Positions 27,640-30,190 of a DNA stretch of 64,000 nucleotides are shown here, piece by piece. Origin of the DNA: Sphaerochaetaceae bacterium (lineage in GTDB: Bacteria > Spirochaetota > Spirochaetia > Sphaerochaetales > Sphaerochaetaceae). Below the pieces are notes generated by a model. The model was not told the origin of the DNA. It searched no databases and saw only the letters and a program-made list of their open reading frames with translations. Position 1 is the first letter of the stretch; each line of letters opens with the position of its first letter. Position numbers and translations under genes: made by a program. The stretch lies in the NCBI GenBank assembly GCA_028532915.1, contig JAQQAI010000089.1, positions 124,001-188,000 of the forward strand, given 5' to 3'.

Positions 27640-29103
27640 TTACTCCTCATCGACTTCCACTTCTTCAAAACTCAATCCGACGCCACAATTGGGACAACTT
27701 GTCATCTCCGGGTTGAGCGGCTCTCCACATTCAGGGCAGAGGAACTGCTGTTCGACCTCTCCTTCTGCCTCTTCTTCTACAATATCCACGTACTCAGATA
27801 GAATCTGCATGGCATTGCTTATCTCTTCTTCTGAGATGTCTTCTAATGTCGAAATCTCTTCATCGCTGAGATTTACGAACTCTTCGACAGTATAGATGTC
27901 ATAGTAGTGCAATTTCTGAAGAAGTTTGCGGTCGAATTCCTCGATATCTCCGAGTTCGATCTCCTCTTCTTCATATTCCTGTTCGACATATTCCTGATCA
28001 TCTTCTACGAACAGTGCATCAAGCCGTTCCTTGGTCTCCAGATCAAGATCAAGTTCCCTATACTGCTCCATTGTCTTGACGTCAATAATCCAGTCGGCAA
28101 GTTTATTAGCCAGTCTGACGTTTATCCCCTGCTTTCCGATCGCCAGTGACAGCTGAGAATCTTCTACGACAGCAATGGCTGTCCGTTTGACCTCGTCTAG
28201 AATGACGACCTTCTTGATATCTGCCGGTGAAAGACAATTCTTGATATACTCAATCGGATTAGGGTCATATCGAAGTACATCGATTCTCTCCCCTTCCATC
28301 TCTCTCATGATAGTCTGAACTCTGATTCCTTTCAACCCGACACAAGCCCCTACCGGATCTAAATCATTTCGTTGTGAATAGACTGCTACCTTGGTTCTGT
28401 AACCGGGCTCTCTGACGATCTTATGGATTTCGATAGAATGGTCATATATTTCGGGAACTTCAAGTTCGAAGAGCTTTCTCACGAACTCGGAATGGGTTCT
28501 TGAGAGTTCCACTCTCAGGTCGCCCCTTTCAGGCTTCTCAACTCTATAGACATAACATTTTATCTTGTCATTCTTTCTGTAGACTTCTCTGGGACTCTGG
28601 AAGCTCTTCGGAAGAATACCTTCAATCTTTCCCAGATCAATGATCATATCACCGTTTTTACTTTCACGCTGATAATAACCGATGATCATTTCACCTTCTT
28701 TCGTTTTGTATTCGGAATAGAGAGTATCTTTCTGAATCTCTCTCAGTTCCTGTTTCGCCTTCTGCTTGGCACTCTGAACCGAGATTCTGTCGAATGTCTT
28801 CGGATCGATGGGAATAAGGACTTCGTCTCCGAGTTCACATTCCGGATGGAGCTCTTTTGCATCGGACAATGAGATCTCATCAATCATTCCGTCAAATTCG
28901 TCATCTTCTACGATCATTTTCTTTGCGAAAAGTTCCACATTGTCAAGTGCGTCATTGAATTGGACGACTGCATTGTCGCTCGTCCCGAATTTTCTCTTAT
29001 AGGCAGCGAGAAGAACATCGGTGATGGTCTCTATTACTACATCTTCAGAAATTCCCCGCTCATTCACTAAAGAACGGATTGCTTCTCCTAATTCATTGGA
29101 CAT
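27640..29103 (-). CDS. nusA: Transcription factor NusA with C-terminal zinc ribbon
   Basis: A 487-residue RNA-polymerase-binding elongation/termination factor. The N-terminal domain (1-125) is followed by an S1 domain (about 130-200, GYYQRESKNGDMIIDLGKIE), then KH1 and KH2 (about 230-345, VGACVGLKGIRVQTIM and LAIGKQGINVRLANKLADWI). A very acidic stretch (about 365-390) precedes a helix-hairpin-helix-like segment (LQKLHYYDIYTVEEFVNLSD). The last 35 residues hold a four-cysteine ribbon, Cys456/459/470/473 (CPECG...CPNCG), not a standard part of NusA. The ATG at 29103 shares one base with the rimP stop (TAATG). Confidence 0.96.
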   Translation of the reverse strand: MSNELGEAIRSLVNERGISEDVVIETITDVLLAAYKRKFGTSDNAVVQFNDALDNVELFAKKMIVEDDEFDGMIDEISLSDAKELHPECELGDEVLIPIDPKTFDRISVQSAKQKAKQELREIQKDTLYSEYKTKEGEMIIGYYQRESKNGDMIIDLGKIEGILPKSFQSPREVYRKNDKIKCYVYRVEKPERGDLRVELSRTHSEFVRKLFELEVPEIYDHSIEIHKIVREPGYRTKVAVYSQRNDLDPVGACVGLKGIRVQTIMREMEGERIDVLRYDPNPIEYIKNCLSPADIKKVVILDEVKRTAIAVVEDSQLSLAIGKQGINVRLANKLADWIIDVKTMEQYRELDLDLETKERLDALFVEDDQEYVEQEYEEEEIELGDIEEFDRKLLQKLHYYDIYTVEEFVNLSDEEISTLEDISEEEISNAMQILSEYVDIVEEEAEGEVEQQFLCPECGEPLNPEMTSCPNCGVGLSFEEVEVDEE

Positions 29104-29698: not shown

Positions 29699-30190
29699 TT
29701 ATATGAATGTAATGAATCCGGCATGTTTCGACCGCTGTGAAGGATATCTCACCGCAAGGAAACGGAAACTCGGGGATTCTCTCCTGCAAAGTTCAAAACC
29801 GTTCACATAATTGCAAACATTCACAAGAAAAGGGAAATAATCACTTTCTGAGTCGTCTGCAGTCAAAGCATATCCGAAAGGGAGAAGGACCTCTCCGATC
29901 TGACGGACAGTCTCCTTGTGAAATCCTTTTTCCACAGAATCAAAAAAAGTACTCACGACTATTGTCTTTCTGAATACTGTCAGATGAAACGTACTGTTTC
30001 GGCAGGTACAGACACTGTTCTCGTGTATAAGATACGAGCCGCAGACTCTGCAGTATCCGTGAAGATATCGAATCAGCATCTCCTCTTTCAGCAGCGCTAG
30101 ACACTTTTCACACAATCCGGTGCTCTCTTTCCGGCACAGCGGACAAAGATATGAGATCATATCATATAATACGTATTCAAGAGTGTTCAT
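29699..30190 (-). CDS. Zinc-ribbon protein with ComF-like N-terminus
   Basis: A 163-residue protein with two four-cysteine knuckles: Cys16/19/27/30 (CPLCRKESTGLCEKC) and Cys47/50/61/63 (CRVCG...CTC). This double ribbon resembles the N-terminus of ComFC-type phosphoribosyltransferases, where an LCxxC knuckle is followed by a CRxCG knuckle. The rest (64-163) has no PRPP-binding motif (no VDDxxTTG pattern), so the transferase part is absent or degenerated beyond recognition. The start overlaps the mutS stop as ATGA. It is the last gene of the tamB-bamA-mutS run. I do not know its function; a decayed ComF or an independent zinc protein are both possible. Confidence 0.6.
   Translation of the reverse strand: MNTLEYVLYDMISYLCPLCRKESTGLCEKCLALLKEEMLIRYLHGYCRVCGSYLIHENSVCTCRNSTFHLTVFRKTIVVSTFFDSVEKGFHKETVRQIGEVLLPFGYALTADDSESDYFPFLVNVCNYVNGFELCRRESPSFRFLAVRYPSQRSKHAGFITFI

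Follow-up and report, generated by a model that had tools for sequence, protein, structure and literature searches.

A probable C-terminal C4 zinc ribbon conserved in NusA through much of the Spirochaetota and absent from sampled proteins with a second acidic-repeat domain

The nusA gene of a Sphaerochaetaceae bacterium encodes a protein ending in four cysteines spaced like those of a zinc ribbon. This raises the question of whether such an ending is a genuine part of NusA, how far it is spread, and what it might do during transcription. The gene lies in the window, by which we mean the whole stretch of 64,000 nucleotides that was analysed, and all coordinates below refer to it. The following features were assigned:

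29103-27640, minus strand: nusA, 487 aa, between rimP and infB
28726..29094, minus strand: NusA N-terminal domain (PF08529, 108.9 bits, cut-off 23.8), polymerase-binding in E. coli
28525..28656, minus strand: S1 domain, a partial match (PF00575, 21.9 bits, just below the cut-off of 22)
28201..28407, minus strand: NusA-type KH domain (PF13184, 87.1 bits, cut-off 27)
27784..27963, minus strand: single acidic-repeat (AR) domain of the HhH kind, residues 381-440, with profile matches to E. coli AR1 and AR2
27748..27783, minus strand: acidic linker, residues 441-452, of low model confidence
27664..27747, minus strand: C4 zinc ribbon, residues 453-480, including the conserved Phe479
27643..27663, minus strand: acidic C-terminal tail, residues 481-487

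The reading frame that carries the ribbon is an ordinary one. Translation starts at ATG 29103, preceded by a Shine-Dalgarno-like GGAGG at 29118-29114, and ends at the stop codon 27642-27640; the rimP stop and the nusA start overlap by one base (TAATG). The list of open reading frames also offers a start six codons upstream (ATG 29121, 493 aa), which is unlikely because this ATG overlaps the Shine-Dalgarno-like stretch. The start, the stop and the Shine-Dalgarno-like stretch are all normal, the first two as had been claimed in the original prediction, and a broken gene is thereby ruled out. An assembly or frame artefact as the source of the ribbon tail was also ruled out, since the tail recurs in many genomes. 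The protein passes the equivalog model TIGR01953 (396.3 bits, cut-off 253.4) and is alone in the genome in matching the NusA_N family at E 0.001. The minus-strand frames of the window, in which a family search was made for nusA alone and the neighbours were named by reading, include pnp, rpsO, ribF, truB, rbfA, infB, nusA and rimP; the rimP-nusA-infB order matches that of E. coli and represents the usual nusA-infB cluster. Between rimP and mutS, the minus strand also holds a frame of 163 aa (29699-30190) with a Cys-rich N-terminus and a weak likeness to the double zinc ribbon family DZR_2 (14.2 bits, cut-off 27), which presumably resembles ComF-type proteins.

The final residues of the window NusA are FLCPECGEPLNPEMTSCPNCGVGLSFEEVEVDEE, and they contain the pattern C-x2-C-x10-C-x2-C at Cys456, Cys459, Cys470 and Cys473 (numbered from the MSN start), encoded at 27738-27736, 27729-27727, 27696-27694 and 27687-27685. 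Both the codon positions and the numbering agree exactly with the four-cysteine ribbon first proposed for the interval 27685-27738. When the eight cysteines of the protein were placed at random, this exact spacing arose in 2 of 100000 trials. In the Pfam search, the tail resembled two families with paired CxxC motifs and exceeded both cut-offs when taken alone: PF13248 Zn_ribbon_3 (cut-off 27) gave 31.3 bits with the 42-residue tail and 28.7 bits with a 109-residue tail, and PF13240 Zn_Ribbon_1 (cut-off 25) gave 26.0 bits. Whole NusA stays below both (26.1 and 21.0 bits, respectively). These families are generic short ribbons, whereas the consensus ITxDMTxCPNCGVGLSFE obtained from 104 ribbon-bearing rows is particular to the spirochaete group, in which 99 of the 104 tails match Zn_ribbon_3 at E 0.01 in a family scan.

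The segment before the ribbon had been described as acidic and HhH-like; it is now identified as one NusA AR domain, as a profile of residues 381-440 detects the two ARs of E. coli NusA, with 12.2 bits for AR1 and 22.3 bits for AR2. The window NusA has one such domain, not two. In the AlphaFold2 model built on a 56-row alignment, the AR is helical (pLDDT 85-93) and the ribbon is modelled with a pLDDT of 82-91, both read by blocks of ten residues, and linker residues 443-450 fall below 50, which suggests a floppy linker before the ribbon. A model of the 109-residue tail (104 rows) was less confident, with a mean pLDDT of 80.9 and a pTM of 0.49.

Such a ribbon had been held to lie outside standard NusA, and the comparisons bear this out. 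The TIGR01953 match spans residues 11-353 only, and the tail of E. coli NusA, read directly, contains no CxxC pair. E. coli NusA (NTD-S1-KH1-KH2-AR1-AR2) shares the core, the gene position between rimP and infB and a related AR; it differs in having AR2 at the place where the window NusA has its C4 ribbon after a single AR. Among solved chains matching the window NusA (17 sequences, E 0.001), all matches stop by query residue 435, short of the ribbon. The core matched T. maritima NusA (1hh2) and 9a74_B, which we take to be B. subtilis NusA, over model residues 1-350 and 1-387, respectively, and these chains, of 344 and 371 residues, are too short for an AR plus a ribbon. Foldseek with the tail model had no match at E 0.001, and no solved relative of the ribbon emerged from the fold searches, whose results were taken up by the NusA core or the AR; one search with the tail model covered residues 1-64, which is the AR. 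A profile search of the PDB with the tails found the AR chains 1wcl, 1wcn, 2jzb_B and 6ib8_C and also matched alpha-CTD; its further hits, on ribosomal L32 and generic zinc fingers, were taken as unspecific. A title and abstract search of the open-access literature, with subscription papers mostly outside its scope, found no description of a zinc ribbon on NusA, and an earlier mention is possible.

The taxonomic survey proposed along with the original prediction demonstrated that the ribbon is widespread in Spirochaetota and conserved through much of the phylum. Among 61 related genomes, 58 gave a NusA match, and 52 of the 57 NusA ends read from them carry the ribbon, which is missing in L031, L034, L045, L054 and L056; C456, C459, C470, C473 and F479 are each at least 90% conserved among 56 aligned NusAs. 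Of the two observations that would have spoken against the original prediction, the same tail was thus not seen in E. coli NusA or reached by the matches to solved chains, and the cysteines proved to be conserved in relatives. Through the phylum, NusA was matched in 290 of 296 genomes, and the ribbon is present in 104 of 142 distinct NusAs, a non-random sample made up of the nearest relatives and, for each further family, mostly a single genome or a few. This sample leaves out duplicate genomes (L002, L059, L060, L061, L062, L068, L070, L078, L087, L136 and L150), fragmentary or partially re-fetched loci (L058, L154, L157 and L158), two loci from other phyla (L159 and L160) and L123, in which an in-frame TGA falls exactly at the fourth ribbon cysteine and the frame runs on for about 30 codons, owing to a sequencing error, a truncation or recoding. 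In the 104 rows, the first, third and fourth cysteines are invariant, with conservation of 90% or more at the second; the spacing between the second and third is 10 residues in 100 rows, 11 in three and 15 in one. Two members are unusual: L127, counted among the 104, has Ser in place of the second cysteine (CPES) and an extra cysteine right after the last pair, and L129 carries a tandem pair of ribbons at its C-terminus. In a quick tree, 19 of the 31 rows that have one AR and no ribbon fall in one group. The ribbon-bearing NusAs presumably include Borrelia-, Treponema- and Brachyspira-like ones; as to individual genomes, we take L138 to be Treponema pallidum, L052 Borrelia turicatae, L132 Brachyspira murdochii, L034 Sphaerochaeta coccoides and L074/L150 Spirochaeta africana.

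Beyond this phylum, a pattern scan of a collection of genomes from 84,980 species, requiring an LxGW-type KH2 motif followed by a C4 ribbon, gave two matches, and both were rejected as chance: in L159 the cysteine pattern lies beyond the NusA stop, and in L160 it does not lie in the NusA frame, where the tail is free of cysteine. As a control, a near-identical pattern (spirochaete DW) recovered 24 of 161 loci, which after removal of five duplicates are 19 of the 104 ribbon NusAs; the sensitivity of the scan is thus low, and ribbons elsewhere are possible. Profile searches in the phyla of L159 and L160 matched NusA in 136 genomes out of 140 and in 94 out of 96, and the main NusA matches among those listed end by profile position 452 of 486, which is a measure of alignment reach. 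From these sequence comparisons, the ribbon looks confined to Spirochaetota.

The distribution of AR domains provided a clue to what the ribbon may stand for. The 142 NusAs divide into 104 with a ribbon and one AR, 31 with one AR and no ribbon, and seven with two ARs, the number found in E. coli, and no ribbon (L031, L045, L074, L080, L083, L140 and L151). No protein combines a ribbon with two ARs; ARs were counted at a threshold of 8 bits, and listing down to 3 bits adds no further one. The ribbon and a second AR are clearly mutually exclusive in this sample. The two-AR proteins share the core and an AR with the window NusA and differ from it in having a second AR and no ribbon. As ribbon NusAs have one AR and two-AR NusAs have no ribbon, the ribbon occupies the place that AR2 has in E. 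coli. With the single AR, E. coli AR2 gives a higher score than AR1 does, so that this AR could itself be the AR2 equivalent.

How often one module may have given way to the other is a separate matter. In the quick tree, six two-AR rows fall in a 102-row part that holds 92 ribbon rows, and the remaining one, L140, is grouped as a pair with the ribbon row L118; the two-AR label needs 4 changes there, at least 3 of them forced by starred branches. The careful tree of 46 rows leaves the order open and forces only 1 change of the label, and it is compatible with the six Spirochaetia-type two-AR rows having arisen once (AU p 0.196), which weakens the idea of several independent swaps from ribbon to AR2. 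Ribbon loss coincided with a second AR in 3 of 6 independent pairs (p 0.25). Because of this AU value and these pairs, any "replacement" rests on few events. L034, with one AR and no ribbon, represents a well-supported loss within a ribbon-bearing group in the careful tree; this loss, together with the 31 of 142 NusAs that have neither a ribbon nor a second AR, indicates that the module is not indispensable.

Based on this evidence, we carefully suggest that the ribbon may be a flexibly tethered knob, stabilised by zinc and used for docking proteins, which would correspond in Spirochaetota to E. coli AR2, a tentative reading to which we give slightly less than an even chance. NusA would bind the polymerase through its N-terminal domain and RNA through S1-KH1-KH2, and the knob, placed past one AR and the floppy acidic linker, would engage a partner that sits on the elongation complex, using its acidic face together with the conserved Phe that follows the last cysteine; this contact may affect pausing or termination. 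Such a partner could be the alpha-CTD, NusG or a factor of termination or antitermination; it could also be the KH1 domain of NusA itself, comparable to the autoinhibition in E. coli. Passages in PMC7171158 and PMC6614801 describe E. coli AR2 as recruiting the alpha-CTD, the NusG N-terminal domain, SuhB and lambda Q, and as covering KH1 in free NusA. A passage in PMC12297416 gives AR1 and KH2 of E. coli NusA as the predicted, cross-link-supported contact of initiation factor IF2, and the region that adjoins the ribbon thus serves for docking in E. coli. The genome carries genes for the alpha-CTD, NusG and the inositol-phosphatase family, and partners of the AR2 type may therefore exist; the last of these says little, because the family is present in 14 of 14 control genomes. 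Besides the main NusG, the genome has a second NusG-family match (L171, contig C70) at 33.9 bits, over the cut-off. As stated in part of PMC7237435, NusA is among the proteins that co-purify with Borrelia RNA polymerase.

The nearest rival of the docking knob, which we regard as unlikely, is that the acidic ribbon folds onto the RNA-binding surface of KH1/S1 as an intramolecular lid, autoinhibiting NusA until it is released on the polymerase, with no need of an outside partner. E. coli AR2 acts in this way, and W490 and F491 form part of the contact in a modelled autoinhibited NusA, according to a passage in PMC7171158; the spirochaete ribbon is likewise acidic, the linker is predicted to be flexible, and an aromatic residue follows within eight residues of the fourth cysteine in 104 of 104 rows. 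A contact of the ribbon with the core, however, cannot be judged from the whole-NusA model, which has a pTM of 0.59 and comes without an error matrix, and the two-AR spirochaete NusA ends inspected do not finish in an aromatic pair. For the latter reason, the suggestion that the conserved ribbon Phe copies W490/F491 was dropped.

The ribbon might also be a passive stabilising cap that has no specific partner, and the 31 NusAs that manage without either module would fit such a role. The codon comparisons of the window NusA with nine relatives speak against it and make the cap rather improbable: the ribbon had 2-9 amino-acid-changing codons among its 28, the AR 20-32 among about 60 and the core 32-103 among about 344, and in 9 of 9 comparisons the share of such codons in the ribbon was below that in the AR. 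Judged by this measure, constraint on the ribbon exceeds that on the AR and is similar to, or somewhat below, that on the core.

RNA polymerase, nucleic acid and a partner protein had all been named in the original prediction as possible targets of the ribbon, and of these three, nucleic acid is the least likely. Many zinc ribbons of transcription proteins bind nucleic acid, and NusA is located near the RNA exit, which would place the ribbon within reach of nascent RNA or upstream DNA. Its composition points the other way: the ribbon core of about 24 residues contains on average 0.84 Lys plus Arg and 2.70 Asp plus Glu over the 104 rows, 83 of the 104 have no or one Lys/Arg in the core, and 102 of the 104 are net acidic from the ribbon to the C-terminus. 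This poverty in basic residues and net acidity speak against RNA or DNA binding, and we consider a nucleic-acid-binding ribbon improbable. A zinc or redox sensor, in which loss of zinc or oxidation of the cysteines would unfold the knob and alter termination genome-wide, is the least probable reading and quite remote, as four conserved cysteines on the flexible end of a protein that acts at most transcription units would be in keeping with it, but three invariant cysteines and one near-invariant one suit a plain structural site equally well.

Returning to the docking knob, its wider form would be that the protein-recruiting end of NusA has been remodelled in Spirochaetota, that the zinc ribbon and the second AR are unrelated, interchangeable docking modules at one place, and that a factor or polymerase surface recruited by the ribbon governs pausing and termination in spirochaetes in a way not found in E. 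coli or B. subtilis. We consider this doubtful as it stands; the exclusive pairing of the ribbon with the second AR nevertheless turns swapped docking modules into a directly testable claim. The seven two-AR Spirochaetota NusAs widen the distribution to which a 2020 paper confines two-AR NusA. The agents of Lyme disease and syphilis presumably belong to ribbon-bearing lineages. In Borrelia burgdorferi, NusA and NusG are annotated but unstudied according to a 2023 paper (PMC10319736), which also raises the question of whether, with few canonical intrinsic terminators predicted, termination is due to protein factors. As NusA is a core elongation factor, an extra domain conserved across much of the phylum provides a concrete handle on pausing and termination in spirochaetes.
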